A stretch of DNA of 50,644 nt from a virus. Within the stretch, counting starts at the first letter, position 1, and each line of letters opens with the position of its first letter. The position numbers were made by a program, and so were the translations under genes. The stretch is from IMG/VR virus record IMGVR_UViG_3300030107_004028, positions 1-50,644 of that record. The stretch is one strand, 5' to 3'. The notes beneath the pieces were generated by a model. The model had not been told where the DNA came from. It searched no databases and saw only the letters and a program-made list of their open reading frames with translations. This document shows positions 19,742 to 31,139 of the stretch, piece after piece.

Positions 19742-20527
19742 TTAATTATCTTCTTCTTCACATACTAAATCAATTGACAGATGTTGTCTAAATTCTTCTT
19801 GCATTCTCTCTCGAACGTGGACATTATTTCTATCAAATTCATATCTATAAAATTGCTCTACTCTATCGTTTACTGGATTAGATTCATCTGCGTCTAAAAT
19901 TCTTCTCTCAATTTGAGTTTCGTCGCAAAATCCTTCAACTCCATTATTTTTATTTTGATTATCCGACGATAATTCGAGTTTTTTACTGATTACATTATTT
20001 AAAACCAATAAGGCATTATGTAATATATCTTTATTTATACTTACTTTCCTATCTTTATATATATTTTGTCCAAATGAATTATTCACAACATAAATACATA
20101 ATAACTTATTTATAAAAAGAATAAAACCTAACTTTACATTTTCTTCAATTCCCGTCGTTTTCGTTAAAACATCTCTAATAAAATTTGGTATTCTACTTAA
20201 AAACCTTTCAAAATATTTATCGTAATAGTCGTTATCTGTCCAATGCTCATAAAAACTCGACGGGATTTCCTCTTCGTTATATTCTTCGATTAAAGAGTCG
20301 TAAAAATGACTTAAAAAATCATTAATATTTTCTTCGATATTATACGTTCCTTCTGACAAATATAAATCTGCAAAGTCTTCACTTTTTCTTCTATCTTCTA
20401 ATCCTAAATTATAAAAAATATTTAATATTTCTCTATTTGTATTTACGGAATTATCTTCACTCAACTTAATTTCATTTTTTAAAGACGTTATAACGTCCAA
20501 TAGCTTGTAATCTTCTTTTTTAATCAT
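19742..20527 (-). CDS. Hypothetical protein downstream of the amidoligase (261 aa)
   Basis: An acidic, Asn/Asp-rich, helical protein with no recognised motif, one Cys in the C-terminal region (GFCDETQIERRILDAD) and an acidic end. It begins 11 bases after the amidoligase stop with SD AAAAGGACAAC and so is the third gene of the amidotransferase-amidoligase unit. It may be a substrate, scaffold or regulator of that pair; this is inference from position. Confidence 0.5.
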   Translation of the reverse strand: MIKKEDYKLLDVITSLKNEIKLSEDNSVNTNREILNIFYNLGLEDRRKSEDFADLYLSEGTYNIEENINDFLSHFYDSLIEEYNEEEIPSSFYEHWTDNDYYDKYFERFLSRIPNFIRDVLTKTTGIEENVKLGFILFINKLLCIYVVNNSFGQNIYKDRKVSINKDILHNALLVLNNVISKKLELSSDNQNKNNGVEGFCDETQIERRILDADESNPVNDRVEQFYRYEFDRNNVHVRERMQEEFRQHLSIDLVCEEEDN

Positions 20528-20538
20528 CTGTTGTCCTT

Positions 20539-22401
20539 TTAATATGTAATGTAATTATTAATATATTCTAAATCTACTGGCTTAATTCTTCTCGACTGAT
20601 TATTTACGTTTGTGAAATCTGAAAGTCTTAATAGTCTATGGTTTAAATAGTCTATTGTCTCAAATCTGTTTTTGTTTTCGTCGAATTTTACTACTCTGTT
20701 GATTCTATTGTAACAATCGTATAAATGATTATTTTCTGTCATTTCACTATTGTTTATTTCGTCGAATCTATCTTCAAAATATTGTATGGTGTCAGTAGGT
20801 AATTCAATCATTTTATACATACTATTTTTAGTTATTAGAGGATGATTATCTCTCGACGACGTTCTTTTAAGTCCTAAATTAAGAACGGCTTGTGGAACGG
20901 CGATTAAATCATCTCTATCGTCCTCTGAAAATTCGAGTAAGTCCATTATACCATTCGAAACGTCCTTATACTCTTTTATTGATACGCTACTCCCATTTTC
21001 ATATCCGTTTATTGCTTTTTCATCAGCTTGATAATTATAGTGTTCGTCGTGTAAAAAGATTGCTCTCTCTGATAAATCTTCACTTGGTGAAATACCTTCT
21101 CTAATAGAATTTATATATTTGTTGTATCCTAAAATCGTTTTTGATACATCAAAATCATTTTCTTTTAAAATATTGTCTCCTATTCGTCGTGCCGTGTCAA
21201 ACATCTGTGTCCAAAATATATTCCAATGCAACATCTTTTTTGGATTTAACGTTCCACTATGGTATCTAATCTCGACGCCTCCATTCGCTTGGAATTTAGG
21301 GTGAAAATTTAGTCCGTGGTATCTTTTGTCGTTATACTTGTCGTTTGTATAATTTCCGTTGTCATACCAAAATTGTATAAACTCGTCTCTACTCGTCGCA
21401 TATTTAAACGAGTTCCAACCCTGACTTACGGGATAACTCCAACGTCCTTGTAATCTCGAAGACGGCAAACTTGCAAAAATATGGGGCTCTGATAACTTAA
21501 CAAGCGACGTTAATACTGAACAATGTATCCAATCAAAGTCTCTTGTGTCTATATGTATATGGTAACCACAACGAGAAGAAATAAATCCGTCGATATTGCT
21601 GTTCTTTAAAGTCGAAGTTATTGTCTTCATATCGTCGTAAAAAATATCTCCCCGACGGGGTTGTAACACTAACTCGTGTCCGTATGGACAATCTTCCGAC
21701 GTTATACTTCCGTCGTGTTCAATATGTCCAGTTCCTCTATCTAAACTTTCGTCGTGTAATCTATTTTTGGACGCTAAATTTTTATGTAATAATTTATCAA
21801 TAACGTCTGACGGCACTCCATTATGGTTAAATTCTATTTCGCTACCAACATAACGTTTCGATTTTATCTTTTTAAAGCTGTCTTTTAATTCGTTGTTTGT
21901 ATTATCTATAAAATCTTTTAAAGCGTCTTTATTTAAATTCATATTCTCTAAATTGCCTTGTTCGTCAAAATTATATAATTGTTTCGACGGGTGTATAAAA
22001 TCTCTGTTATTCTCTACAAATTCTTTTTCAAATACCTCCCATTCTGGATAATCGTCGCTATTTTCCATATAACAATATTCGCAAACTGGCTCGTCTCTAT
22101 GGTTAAAATGAATTTCGTCTCTATGAACCTCTGCGTCGCATTCTGCACAACTAGAAAAAGTATCTTCGTAACAATCGTCGCAATAATTTTCTCCGTGCAT
22201 TTCTGAATAACGGCTTGAATCGTTATGTATTTCATCCTGACAACCATAACAAGTAGTAAATTCTTCGTCATAACAATTCTGACAGACGTCTTCGCCGTTT
22301 GATACTCTTATCAAATCTTCTTCCAATACATTCACGTCGTCGCTACAACAATCGCAATTTACTATTCTTACTTGTGTCTCGTCGTTATTTCTTATTGGCA
22401 T
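20539..22401 (-). CDS. Amidoligase (COOH-NH2 ligase family) with N-terminal zinc fingers
   Basis: A 620-residue protein. Residues 1-115 hold repeated Cys pairs (CDCC, CQNC, CYGC, CDDC, CAEC, CEYC) arranged like treble-clef or LIM-type zinc modules. The catalytic core follows: YVGSEIEFNHNG (G-x-E-x-E), HIEHDGSI, YGHELVLQP, SRCGYHIHIDTRDF, RYHGLNFHPK and VEIRYHSGTLNPKKMLHW, which are hallmark motifs of the glutamine-synthetase-like amidoligase superfamily (Pfam Amidoligase_2). These enzymes are thought to join a carboxylate to an amine with ATP. The gene follows a class II amidotransferase by 21 bases. The substrate is unknown; protein tagging, peptide synthesis or DNA-linked chemistry are all open. 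Confidence 0.88.
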   Translation of the reverse strand: MPIRNNDETQVRIVNCDCCSDDVNVLEEDLIRVSNGEDVCQNCYDEEFTTCYGCQDEIHNDSSRYSEMHGENYCDDCYEDTFSSCAECDAEVHRDEIHFNHRDEPVCEYCYMENSDDYPEWEVFEKEFVENNRDFIHPSKQLYNFDEQGNLENMNLNKDALKDFIDNTNNELKDSFKKIKSKRYVGSEIEFNHNGVPSDVIDKLLHKNLASKNRLHDESLDRGTGHIEHDGSITSEDCPYGHELVLQPRRGDIFYDDMKTITSTLKNSNIDGFISSRCGYHIHIDTRDFDWIHCSVLTSLVKLSEPHIFASLPSSRLQGRWSYPVSQGWNSFKYATSRDEFIQFWYDNGNYTNDKYNDKRYHGLNFHPKFQANGGVEIRYHSGTLNPKKMLHWNIFWTQMFDTARRIGDNILKENDFDVSKTILGYNKYINSIREGISPSEDLSERAIFLHDEHYNYQADEKAINGYENGSSVSIKEYKDVSNGIMDLLEFSEDDRDDLIAVPQAVLNLGLKRTSSRDNHPLITKNSMYKMIELPTDTIQYFEDRFDEINNSEMTENNHLYDCYNRINRVVKFDENKNRFETIDYLNHRLLRLSDFTNVNNQSRRIKPVDLEYINNYITY

Positions 22402-22422
22402 AAATTACTCCTACTATTTAAT

Positions 22423-23628
22423 TTAATATGGAATTTCTGTTTGCTCTTCGTCGATATAACAACCACAATGGTTTTTTATTATATCTTCGTCGCAATACAT
22501 ACACGTATCGTCGTATTCTTGCATATCTCCAAACGTTAAATCTTCTTCTTTTACTAAATCTCCGTTCTTTTTGACGTAATACCAACGTTCTTCTTGCTTG
22601 TCTTCAAACCAATTATCGTCGTTTTTTCTATAAGATACTCCATAGTATTGAGAACATTTTTGAAGTTTCCAATTGTTTTCTTCTTCTTTATATCCCTTCA
22701 CAAAATCGTCGTATTGATTTTGAACAACTTTGGAATAATCAAAATCTGACATATCTAATAATTCATTTTTTAAATTACCATTTTCGTCGTAATAATCGTA
22801 ATTATCGTCTCTATATGTCCACTTATCGTAGTCCGTTCCATTCCAAATTGATGAGTAAGAATTTAACTTACTATAATTCACTATCGATACAAACCTACTC
22901 TCATATTCAAATTCCGTCTTAACTCTATTCGTTCCGTTCTTATCGAATTTTGTAACGTCGTAACTATATAATGTATTAGTCTCTAATGGAAACGTATCTA
23001 TATCTAATTCCAATTCCATAAAAGCGTCCTCTAAAAAATCTTCTTCTGACGCATAAAATAATATTTGTCTATCTTCCCAATAACCTATATACAACGGACG
23101 ATTTTCTTCTCTACATAAATGTAATACGTTTATATCGTCTTTAACAAATGCTAATGCAAAGTCGCTATCAAAATGTTTAACGGCATTCTGAATATCTGAA
23201 TTAACGTCGATTGATTTAAATATTAATTGACTATCTACTGGACAATTCTTGCCTAATTTCTTTTGCATTTCGTCGATATTATAAACACAGCCGTTGTGCG
23301 TTCCTATTGTATTACCTACTTGGAACGGGTGTGCGTTGGCTACACTAATTGCTCCTTCCGTCGCAAAACGTGTATGTCCTAATAATATATTATTGTCTTT
23401 TAATTCTTTTAATGCTTGTCGAAAGTGTTTAGATTTCACGAATTTACTGCTTTCGTCTAACGTCTTATAAATCATTGAGTTCGTCCCAATAGTAGCAACT
23501 CCCGACGACTGATTACCTCTAATCTCACTATCTATTGCAATTAATTTAATTGCTTTTTTTAACTTGTTAAAGTCCTTATCTGATAAATCAGACGTCGGCG
23601 ATTTTGCTATTCCATAAATTCCACACAT
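22423..23628 (-). CDS. Class II glutamine amidotransferase (Ntn hydrolase) with C-terminal Cys cluster
   Basis: A 401-residue protein. MCGIYGIAK exposes the Cys2 nucleophile after Met removal. RGNQSSGVAT, LGHTRFATEG, NAHPF and GTHNGCVYN are the class II (PurF/GlmS/AsnB-type) glutaminase motifs, and DSQLIFKSID follows. No sugar isomerase, synthetase or phosphoribosyl domain is attached; after about residue 230 the sequence is acidic, aromatic and unrecognised, ending in CMYCDEDIIKNHCGC, a likely metal site. Alone it would release ammonia from glutamine, so a partner must use it: the amidoligase 21 bases downstream is the obvious candidate. It has its own promoter (23771-23799) and a structured leader. 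SD GGGAG. Confidence 0.88.
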   Translation of the reverse strand: MCGIYGIAKSPTSDLSDKDFNKLKKAIKLIAIDSEIRGNQSSGVATIGTNSMIYKTLDESSKFVKSKHFRQALKELKDNNILLGHTRFATEGAISVANAHPFQVGNTIGTHNGCVYNIDEMQKKLGKNCPVDSQLIFKSIDVNSDIQNAVKHFDSDFALAFVKDDINVLHLCREENRPLYIGYWEDRQILFYASEEDFLEDAFMELELDIDTFPLETNTLYSYDVTKFDKNGTNRVKTEFEYESRFVSIVNYSKLNSYSSIWNGTDYDKWTYRDDNYDYYDENGNLKNELLDMSDFDYSKVVQNQYDDFVKGYKEEENNWKLQKCSQYYGVSYRKNDDNWFEDKQEERWYYVKKNGDLVKEEDLTFGDMQEYDDTCMYCDEDIIKNHCGCYIDEEQTEIPY

Positions 23629-23764
23629 AATTTTATATCTCCCTATTTAATTTTTTTGACGTCGCAGGAAAAAGAGGAAAGTCAAAAAGAGGTAAAAAAC
23701 CTACGACGCCAATTAATATTGTTTCGACGTTTAAAGTCGACATAATGTATTTTCTCTCTCCCAC
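23629..23764 (-). promoter_or_regulatory. Structured 5' leader of the amidotransferase operon
   Basis: The promoter at 23771-23799 would start transcription near 23764, leaving about 135 nt of leader. It contains CGTCGCAGG (23660-23668) and CCTACGACG (23700-23708), a near-perfect 9-bp inverted repeat, and two copies of AAAAAGAGG between the arms. Such a leader could carry an RNA element or a protein-binding site. No known riboswitch consensus is recognised. The region also lacks any ORF. Confidence 0.45.
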
Positions 23765-23770
23765 GCACAT

Positions 23771-23799
23771 AATATAATAATAAAATATGACAATGTCAA
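23771..23799 (-). promoter_or_regulatory. Leftward sigma70 promoter (amidotransferase operon)
   Basis: On the minus strand TTGACA (23799-23794), exactly 17 bases, then TATATT (23776-23771). Identical -35, spacing and -10 occur at 24461-24489 and 25017-25045. It lies 143 bp upstream of the amidotransferase ATG. Confidence 0.85.
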
Positions 23800-27729: not shown

Positions 27730-27957
27730 ATGGCTGAAAAACCATCAAAAGAACAACTAATTGAAGAAGCAGAAGCTATCATAGAAAAGCACTTCGAACA
27801 AGTACCTCATCTGGGAGAACCAAACGAAGAAGCACTGAATGGTCTTAGAAGAGAAGTTTTGAACGGAAAGCTCAAAAAAGAAAGAAAAAAATATGAAGAT
27901 GCAATCGAATGGATAAGAAGAAAAACAAAGAAACGCTTCGAGAAGGGAGAAAAATGA
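27730..27957 (+). CDS. Small charged helical protein (75 aa)
   Basis: MAEKPSKEQLIEEAEAIIEK, then a Lys/Arg-rich helix (KLKKERKKYEDAIEWIRRK). No SD is visible before ATG 27730. It overlaps the metallopeptidase gene by ATGA. Function unknown. Confidence 0.55.
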   Translation: MAEKPSKEQLIEEAEAIIEKHFEQVPHLGEPNEEALNGLRREVLNGKLKKERKKYEDAIEWIRRKTKKRFEKGEK

Positions 27958-28247
27958 AACTAAATATAGGTGGACACGAATATACTATAGAAGAAAGAAC
28001 ATTAAAAGCAAGTGACTCTACAAAAGAGCTATATGGCAGTCATTTAGTAAAAGATAATGTAATTTTTATTAATAAGGACATAGCACAATCAAGAAGGAGA
28101 GAAACCTTGATACACGAGGTCTTGCACGCCGTTTTTTACAACAGAGGCATAGAACACGATGAACCATTAATAGAAACCCTATCAAATGGGCTGCATCAAT
28201 TAGGAGTAGGAGACTATTTATGGAAAAAAGCACGAAAAAAATCATAG
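27954..28247 (+). CDS. Small zinc metallopeptidase-like protein (HExxH)
   Basis: A 97-residue protein from ATG 27954 (SD AAGGGAGAAA); a longer frame from 27909 overlaps the upstream gene and is not needed. ETLIHEVLHAVFYNRGIEHD contains the HExxH zinc motif, followed by PLIETLSNGL, where a third-ligand Glu is expected. Strands before it (VIFINKDIAQ) match the minimal IrrE/ImmA- or SprT-like phage peptidases. It could degrade a host regulator; the substrate is unknown. The family-level assignment is by motif only. Confidence 0.75.
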   Translation: MKLNIGGHEYTIEERTLKASDSTKELYGSHLVKDNVIFINKDIAQSRRRETLIHEVLHAVFYNRGIEHDEPLIETLSNGLHQLGVGDYLWKKARKKS

Positions 28248-28390
28248 AAGCTAAAAAATCAGGGAATAAAGAGCTTGTACAGAAATTACAGCAAGAATAC
28301 GATAAAGAGTTAAAAATAATAAGAAGTTTAGAAGATGTTAAGGATAAGGAGGATTTTCCGAAAGATGACACAAAAAACAACAACAGCTGA
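28220..28390 (+). CDS. Small charged coiled-coil protein (56 aa)
   Basis: MEKSTKKIIEAKKSGNKELV, then QKLQQEYDKELKIIRSLEDV: one long amphipathic helix ending in an acidic tail. It overlaps the metallopeptidase end by 28 bases and the next gene by 26 bases. SD AGGAGACT. Function unknown. Confidence 0.5.
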   Translation: MEKSTKKIIEAKKSGNKELVQKLQQEYDKELKIIRSLEDVKDKEDFPKDDTKNNNS

Positions 28391-28724
28391 AGATGTAGTA
28401 GCATATATTAAAGAAAATTACCCCGAAACAGAAGGAATGTTTCAAAAAGAGCTAAATAATATGTATATGACTTTTTGCAAGAAACAGTACGATTATGGCC
28501 CAAATAACATAGCAATGGGTACATTGTTGAAAAACGATAAAGAAATCAGCACATCTCTATTAGGTATAATAGTAAGGATGAATGATAAGATAAACAGACT
28601 ACTTAACCTATCAACCAAACACGACCTCAAAGCTCAGAATGAGCCAATTGAGGATGCGTTTTTAGATATAGCAATATATTGCATAATGGCGTTAATAGTC
28701 AAATCAAGGAAATGGAGCAAATAA
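28365..28724 (+). CDS. Nmad1/DUF1599-like nucleotide-modification-associated protein
   Basis: A 119-residue protein from ATG 28365 (MTQKTTTAEDVV); AAGGAGG lies 12 bases upstream. The segment FCKKQYDYGPNNIAMGT, then LLGIIVRMNDKINRLLNL and IEDAFLDIAIYCIMA, matches the 'K..DYG..N...G.....R..DK..RL.NL....EP..D...D...Y' pattern of a phage family annotated as nucleotide modification associated domain 1. Family members are proposed to act on nucleotides in phages with modified DNA, but no activity is proven. The domain assignment is from memory of the pattern. Confidence 0.6.
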   Translation: MTQKTTTAEDVVAYIKENYPETEGMFQKELNNMYMTFCKKQYDYGPNNIAMGTLLKNDKEISTSLLGIIVRMNDKINRLLNLSTKHDLKAQNEPIEDAFLDIAIYCIMALIVKSRKWSK

Positions 28725-30578: not shown

Positions 30579-30744
30579 AAGATGTCACATATGCGATTCA
30601 AAGCTTAGAAATTCTGGTGTATTTGTTTGGTCGAGAAGAAAAGAAGATGCAGTAGCAATTAAATGTTGCCATTGCTTAACTACATATTCGACTGATTTTA
30701 ATATATTAGATTTAGGTATACCAAGAGAAGTAGGATATGCATAA
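30517..30744 (+). CDS. Small zinc-ribbon protein overlapping the terminase small subunit
   Basis: A 75-residue protein that begins inside the previous gene (SD AAAGGAGC) and overlaps it by 62 bases. CHIC and CCHC pairs 27 residues apart form a likely zinc ribbon in a basic context. It ends with ATG overlap to the next gene. May help packaging or bind nucleic acid. Confidence 0.58.
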   Translation: MQFKGPKSKNFKKLKEISRNKRCHICDSKLRNSGVFVWSRRKEDAVAIKCCHCLTTYSTDFNILDLGIPREVGYA

Positions 30745-31139
30745 TGAGATTAGCAGTATATGGAACTTTGAGAAGAAATCGTCCAGATATTGGAAAAGTA
30801 AAAGGTTTTAGCCTTGTATTCCCAGGAACACATTCATATCCAGCAATTATAAAAAACCCTCAAGGAAAGGGAGCTGTAGTTGAAATGGTTGATGTAGACA
30901 ATGAAGATTTAGAATACTACGACAGATATGAAAATGTAGATGGAGGACTTTATGTCAGAACTACAGTTGATGTTGAGTTTAAAAGAGGACAAACTGAAAA
31001 AGCTTGGATATATGTAGCTGGACCATTGCTTTGGGAAAAATCAAAAACTTTCACAGAGGTTCCTGATGCAGACTGGTTGTCTGAAAAAACATCAGAGTTA
31101 ATGGACAGAGTATATGAAAAAGAAATCTACCAAACCTGA
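30744..31139 (+). CDS. Gamma-glutamylcyclotransferase-like (AIG2 fold) protein
   Basis: A 131-residue protein. MRLAVYGTLRRNRPD is the N-terminal YGTL/YGSL loop; LEYYDRYENVDGGLYVRTTV holds the conserved E in the position of the catalytic Glu (E98 of human GGCT); KAWIYVAG is the terminal strand. Such enzymes cleave gamma-glutamyl-amine linkages with release of 5-oxoproline. It overlaps the terminase large subunit by 26 bases, in the late operon, but its chemistry links it to the amidoligase and amidotransferase genes at 20.5-23.6 kb. Substrate unknown. Confidence 0.78.
   Translation: MRLAVYGTLRRNRPDIGKVKGFSLVFPGTHSYPAIIKNPQGKGAVVEMVDVDNEDLEYYDRYENVDGGLYVRTTVDVEFKRGQTEKAWIYVAGPLLWEKSKTFTEVPDADWLSEKTSELMDRVYEKEIYQT

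Follow-up and report, generated by a model that had tools for sequence, protein, structure and literature searches.

Several podoviruses have been predicted to carry a "peptidoglycan modification cassette" that combines a glutamine amidotransferase (GATase), an amidoligase, an ATP-grasp ligase, and a γ-glutamyl cyclotransferase (GGCT), is hypothesized to act on peptidoglycan side chains, and is thought to prevent superinfection (PMC5498523). That paper names the phages PSA-HP1, RIO-1, phiEco32, PaP3, LUZ24, and PA11, and credits the prediction to Hardies 2013 and Iyer. The same suggestion was repeated for OM43 phages (PMC10580990), and for phage ZRK32, which has the same gene types, a role in nitrogen metabolism was preferred (PMC10945688). 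Altered muropeptides in infected cells are not shown in this cited cassette literature. Here, we describe a GATase-amidoligase gene pair in the virus record IMGVR_UViG_3300030107_004028, of which the whole stretch of 50,644 nt (50.6 kb) was analyzed and is referred to as the window. The system is a reduced variant of the published cassette that dispenses with the ATP-grasp or second ligase and adds LIM-like zinc fingers to the amidoligase; it is core to its uncultivated phage clade and probably amidates a host component, most likely of the cell wall, during infection. An earlier sequence-only reading of this DNA had called the system possibly uncharacterized, which holds insofar as its function is only hypothesized in the cited literature, whereas the enzyme set itself had already been published as a predicted cassette (PMC5498523, PMC10580990).

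Both genes lie on the minus strand. The first (22423-23628, 401 residues) encodes a free-standing class II glutaminase that matches GATase_6 (PF13522, 5e-14), with a GAT-II domain covering approximately residues 1-215 and the remainder forming a tail; it is preceded by the Shine-Dalgarno sequence AGGGAG (23639-23644). The residues that mark a class II amidotransferase, that is, a cysteine directly after the methionine (C2) together with R87, N112-G113, and D132, are all present and proved invariant in an alignment of nine diverse phage GATases (that of the window and eight others) as well as in 24 of 24 clade members. After a gap of 21 bases follows the gene for a predicted ATP-dependent COOH-NH2 amide ligase (20539-22401, 620 residues), which matches Amidoligase_2 (PF12224) at 1e-18 with 68.5 bits as compared to a curated cut-off of 22. 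Its putative catalytic core (21259-21846) retains the acidic, histidine, and arginine motifs of this family (GxExE, HxH, DKYNDKRYHGLN, and ExRYHSGT), and GSE(188)IE(190), H281-x-H283, KYNDKRYHG, and E377-x-R379 are invariant in 25 of 25 full-length amidoligases.

What sets this amidoligase apart is its N-terminus, where three CxxC...CxxC units (residues 16-110; 22072-22356) resemble LIM or zinc-ribbon-type fingers and would be expected to bind zinc. None of their 12 cysteines varies across the 25 homologues compared, and the zinc-finger-type arrays noted in the sequence-only reading are real. The amidoligase-family profile weakly matches the LIM domains of CRP2 (E 0.002); the Pfam LIM profile remained below its cut-off on the protein. 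For the N-terminal 132 residues, no match turned up among 50,697 named phage records, and GTDB genomes scanned with the zinc-finger amidoligase yielded just two distant matches to the core, for which reason cellular homologues were discarded as a clue to host or function.

The window also encodes, on the plus strand and adjoining the terminase gene, a putative γ-glutamyl(amine) cyclotransferase of the GGCT/GGACT (AIG2-like) type (30744-31139, 131 residues). It matches GGACT (PF06094) at 7e-15 and retains the YGTL motif (as YGTLR) as well as the position of the glutamate predicted to be catalytic, E63, which aligns with E82 of the GGACT structure (2kl2/1vkb); the latter we take to be the catalytic residue of that enzyme. 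A GGCT was found in 45 of 49 records, and in the clade its place next to the terminase, on the strand opposite to the pair, is conserved. Since it adjoins the terminase and shares no operon with the pair here, any link between the two rests on their co-occurrence in unrelated phages; the sequence-only reading, which connected them, was thus right about the enzyme and its presence in the same genomes, but an operon with the pair does not exist in the window. The other nameable genes of the window are those of an ordinary phage, namely DnaB helicase, RusA, exonuclease, terminase, portal, and major head protein, and the GATase and amidoligase genes point the same way as the replication genes.

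Evidence for a functional unit comes from the strict pairing of the two genes. In a first set, each of the 24 records that have a zinc-finger amidoligase also holds a GATase. In a second sample chosen by terminase (n = 37), GATase and amidoligase occur together in 25 records, and a single record has the GATase only and ends ≤0.8 kb from that gene. All clade records of at least 20 kb carry both genes except G043, a fragment that has its terminase close to its start, which led us to reject the idea of a mobile accessory gene. A wider search returned 75 further amidoligase loci, many of them from the same records, and 73 of these match the window in having the GATase adjacent, within ~1.5 kb of the amidoligase; the two exceptions start inside the missing stretch (locus edge), and one of them has a GATase next door according to a whole-record search. 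Three arrangements were found, with the GATase directly upstream, with the GATase separated from the downstream amidoligase by a spacer of ~300 bp, or with the GATase downstream of the amidoligase (L241, L245, and L247); the contigs of the last type show no or distant (25 %) similarity to the window terminase. The pairing hence survives rearrangement of the gene order and is stronger evidence than synteny. In many loci, the two genes even overlap by a few bases.

A third gene, ORF3 (19742-20527, minus strand, 261 residues), starts 11 bases after the amidoligase gene and was without a Pfam or PHROG match. A homologue is present only in the nearest relative (L002/L011), and ORF3 was accordingly rejected as a member of the system. 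The sequence-only reading had proposed an operon of all three genes with its own promoter and leader; GATase, amidoligase, promoter, and leader stand, ORF3 as a conserved member does not. The same is true of that interpretation at large: all four open reading frames were recovered at their coordinates, and the amide-forming pair, the catalytic residues (retained on alignment in GATase, amidoligase, and GGCT), the co-occurrence of the genes, the GGCT, and the cysteine arrays were borne out, while the inclusion of ORF3 and the novelty of the system were not. ORF3 weakly matches the candidate defence protein PDC-M66B (E 4e-4 over 62 residues). A PADLOC scan gave no match for the enzymes, and a known anti-phage system was thus discounted.

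The pair is exceptional in its divergence. Identity to clade members is ~82 % for terminase and portal, 65 % for the GGCT, and 46 % for the GATase, as compared to 34 % for the amidoligase, the lowest value among genes present in nearly all records; within the amidoligase, it falls from 50 % in the core to 32 % in the zinc part and 19 % at the C-terminus. Between the window and L002, GATase, amidoligase, and ORF3 have ratios of nonsynonymous to synonymous substitution rates (dN/dS) of 0.19-0.44, whereas those of terminase and portal are 0.04-0.05, and dS is likewise raised (0.41-1.04 versus 0.20-0.30). Because dS is raised and dN/dS stays below 1, positive selection was not supported as the cause for this pair of genomes, and recombination or an older split combined with weaker constraint would be enough to explain their divergence. 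The unusual divergence of the amidoligase within an otherwise conserved phage lineage looks new and points to a variable host target.

With moderate confidence, we propose that the pair uses glutamine and ATP to amidate a macromolecule, in all likelihood peptides of the host cell wall. The class II glutaminase, using its N-terminal cysteine after removal of the methionine, would release ammonia from host glutamine, while the amidoligase would use ATP to activate a carboxylate on the acceptor and then join it to the GATase-derived ammonia. The tandem LIM-like zinc fingers may hold the acceptor, which would then probably be a macromolecule or a bound precursor. If this is a cell-wall peptide or precursor, as seems most likely, the surface of the infected cell would be altered. 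The GGCT could trim or recycle γ-glutamyl products, the promoter of the pair would drive its expression, and the structured leader probably tunes translation of the GATase.

A number of observations weigh against this proposal. The cell-wall acceptor is taken by analogy from what has been published on the sister cassette, with host proteins as the main alternative, and the zinc fingers could also bind nucleic acid. ATP-grasp and PF14395 (second COOH-NH2) ligases gave no match in the window or the clade loci, and the GGCT sits in the packaging operon. Moreover, Blautia-type phages have an amidoligase and a GGCT with no detected GATase, so that enzymes of the Amidoligase_2 family do not necessarily depend on ammonia from a GATase. 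Finally, the best PDB matches of an AlphaFold model of the amidoligase in Foldseek were type III glutamine synthetase (GS), YbdK, and other GS (E ~1e-4), consistent with the GS/GCS2-like fold expected for a COOH-NH2 ligase; given the moderate quality of the model (pLDDT 67.5) and the low TM-scores, this match is supportive only.

The most serious competitor, which we nevertheless regard as distinctly less probable, differs merely in the acceptor: the zinc fingers may recruit a protein or peptide of the host, such as a factor of transcription or translation, the Asp/Glu or C-terminal carboxylate of which is amidated, and the outcome would be host takeover and not a surface change. In its favor, the cysteine array resembles LIM domains, known as modules of protein interaction, those PaP3-type amidoligases that were examined have no fingers, and the gene shares its orientation with the replication genes; the low identities of the zinc part and the C-terminus relative to the core are also as expected of target-specific parts. 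However, the sister cassette has been interpreted in print as acting on the cell wall, and a surface that changes would account for rapid divergence just as well. The chemistry itself may also be different. The amidoligase could form γ-glutamyl or other isopeptide/amine bonds without ammonia, with the GATase supplying glutamate and ammonia locally and the GGCT removing γ-glutamyl groups, reminiscent of the protect/deprotect γ-glutamyl route of butirosin synthesis. While the frequency of the GGCT and the Blautia-type amidoligase-GGCT neighbors without a GATase are in line with such a scenario, the GATase is never missing beside zinc-finger amidoligases where the contig is long enough; its constant presence and the frequent overlap of the two genes favor direct use of ammonia and leave bond formation of this kind unlikely.

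Both remaining explanations are less likely than amidation of a cell-wall or host-protein acceptor. Amidoligases are known from DNA-modification loci, and the window encodes a DUF1599 protein (PF07659, "nucleotide modification associated domain 1"; 28335-28724, E 1e-5), so that the pair might amidate a carboxylated base during hypermodification of the phage DNA; yet this protein belongs to a different operon, and no base-modifying synthase, hydroxylase, or kinase was found among the scanned window proteins, making this the least plausible explanation by our estimate and a very improbable one. Only slightly less doubtful is an auxiliary nitrogen metabolism, as proposed for ZRK32 with the same gene types (PMC10945688), in which glutamine nitrogen is rerouted or glutamine depleted for the benefit of the phage in the absence of any dedicated macromolecular target. 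Of a purely metabolic enzyme, however, one would expect neither the strongest divergence among the broadly conserved genes of the clade (34 % versus 82 % for the terminase) nor the retention of three invariant cysteine units.

The least expected part of the finding concerns the RNA upstream of the GATase. In the window, a putative σ70-like promoter, TTGACA-17-TATATT (23771-23799, minus strand; 11 of 12 bases by consensus match only), which is identical in the relative L002, precedes a leader of ~140 nt. Three sites with these same hexamers and spacing occur within 1.3 kb on this strand (25045-25017, 24489-24461, and 23799-23771). Folding of the leader revealed a hairpin (23656-23712, minus strand) with a 13-bp stem (arms 23712-23700 and 23668-23656) and a pyrimidine-rich loop of 31 nt, with a minimum free energy of -19.5 kcal/mol (z -5.9), while the whole leader folds no better than shuffled sequences (z -0.2). 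The sole hairpin base that differs in L002 changes a U-G to a U-A pair and thus keeps the pairing. Near-total conservation of the leader between the two genomes was not used as proof of function because the neighboring coding sequence is locally conserved as well, and a terminator was rejected, since no U-run follows the stem.

Most relatives have a larger element of ~95 nt directly upstream of the GATase (L024:6695-6790, with equivalents in ~35 other leaders), in which a stem of 16 bp leads to a three-way junction and a near-invariant UCCUUUC lies in the 9-nt loop of a hairpin. Covariation was tested on a sequence-only alignment of 28 leaders against 500 shuffles and slid versions of the structure. 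Pairs are formed in 85 % of cells (72 % in shuffles), double-changed cells number 92 versus 32, and the covariation score of 0.398 exceeds that of the shuffles (0.186; reached by 0 of 500) and of the slid versions (≤0.114). A covariance model derived from these leaders finds one match above 40 bits per phage, always on the sense strand of the GATase and 24-85 nt before its start. When 2.9 million viral contigs were scanned independently with a pattern, 40 stretches were returned, of which those that match the model all precede a GATase and those that do not are without one. A possible second, tandem copy was seen in L099 (3536-3617, minus strand; 17.7 bits, E 0.87). With no Rfam match at E ≤1 for nine clade loci and the window region, this covarying RNA looks new. 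The window leader is not a full member: a search of the whole window with the model gave no match, and the leader alone (251 bases) scores a weak 8.6 bits, so that its hairpin is at best a reduced relative of the clade RNA.

Versions without the second hairpin (L077, L109, and L117) identify the UCCUUUC hairpin as the constant part. Its loop resembles an anti-Shine-Dalgarno sequence, and pairing with the Shine-Dalgarno sequence of the GATase is a candidate mechanism. Tentatively, the ~95-nt leader might be a new class of cis-regulatory RNA that switches translation of the GATase-amidoligase genes when it senses a metabolite or protein, for which glutamine or the amidated product may be candidates; the UCCUUUC loop would act on the Shine-Dalgarno sequence or the ribosome, and the amidoligase would be engaged in an arms race against a host target that varies. 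A regulatory role would make the leader a new RNA element of phages and could hint at which signal the pathway answers.

A different, short RNA-like element lies between GGCT and GATase in a number of relatives (L033:5064-5167, L025:4462-4656, and also L030, L070, L089, L135, L136, L145, L158, L162, L167, and L169) and is absent from the window. It comprises a CTGGCAACAGAA hairpin followed by a Shine-Dalgarno-like stretch and matches the end of alphaproteobacterial transfer-messenger RNA (RF01849, E 8e-6, below the gathering score), which hints at an alphaproteobacterial host; it may be a leader that belongs to another gene or what remains of an attachment site. Elsewhere in the window, the DUF1599 protein (129 residues) is ~70 % conserved in 20 relatives, and a small IrrE/M78-type metallopeptidase-like protein (27909-28247) is kept in the clade.

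Compared with known systems, the window is closest in gene content and predicted chemistry to the podovirus cassette, with which it shares the presence, in a single phage and alongside replication genes, of a class II GATase, an Amidoligase_2, and a GGCT. The PaP3 cluster consists of a COOH-NH2 ligase, an unknown protein, the amidoligase, the GATase, an ATP-grasp ligase, and the GGCT, and PA11 and Alcaligenes phage QDWS535 also cluster these gene types; the window, in contrast, has no ATP-grasp or PF14395 ligase near the pair and its GGCT lies outside the operon, but it possesses the zinc-finger array and a structured leader RNA. The same reduced three-enzyme set is found in Arthrobacter phage Waltz (MG099950), there clustered in the order GGCT, amidoligase, GATase, with distant sequences and no zinc-finger array. 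The nearest named-phage match to the window amidoligase belongs to the Blautia-type phages (PV036415, L035-L051), which share the conserved core motif YNDxRYHGLN and differ by a short Amidoligase_2 free of zinc fingers, a GGCT in the record, and no detected GATase. Among solved folds, GS and GCS2 (YbdK) are closest to the amidoligase, yet these are metabolic enzymes with ~10 % identity, no zinc fingers, and no GATase partner. A functional analogy is offered by MurT-GatD of Gram-positive bacteria, two proteins that conduct the glutamine-dependent amidation of D-Glu in lipid II (PMC3267633). This system is built from other families (a Mur ligase and a class I-type amidotransferase). Set beside these systems, the two-gene version described here, with its strict pairing, intact sites, and added recruitment domain, represents the simplest form in which to ask what is amidated.

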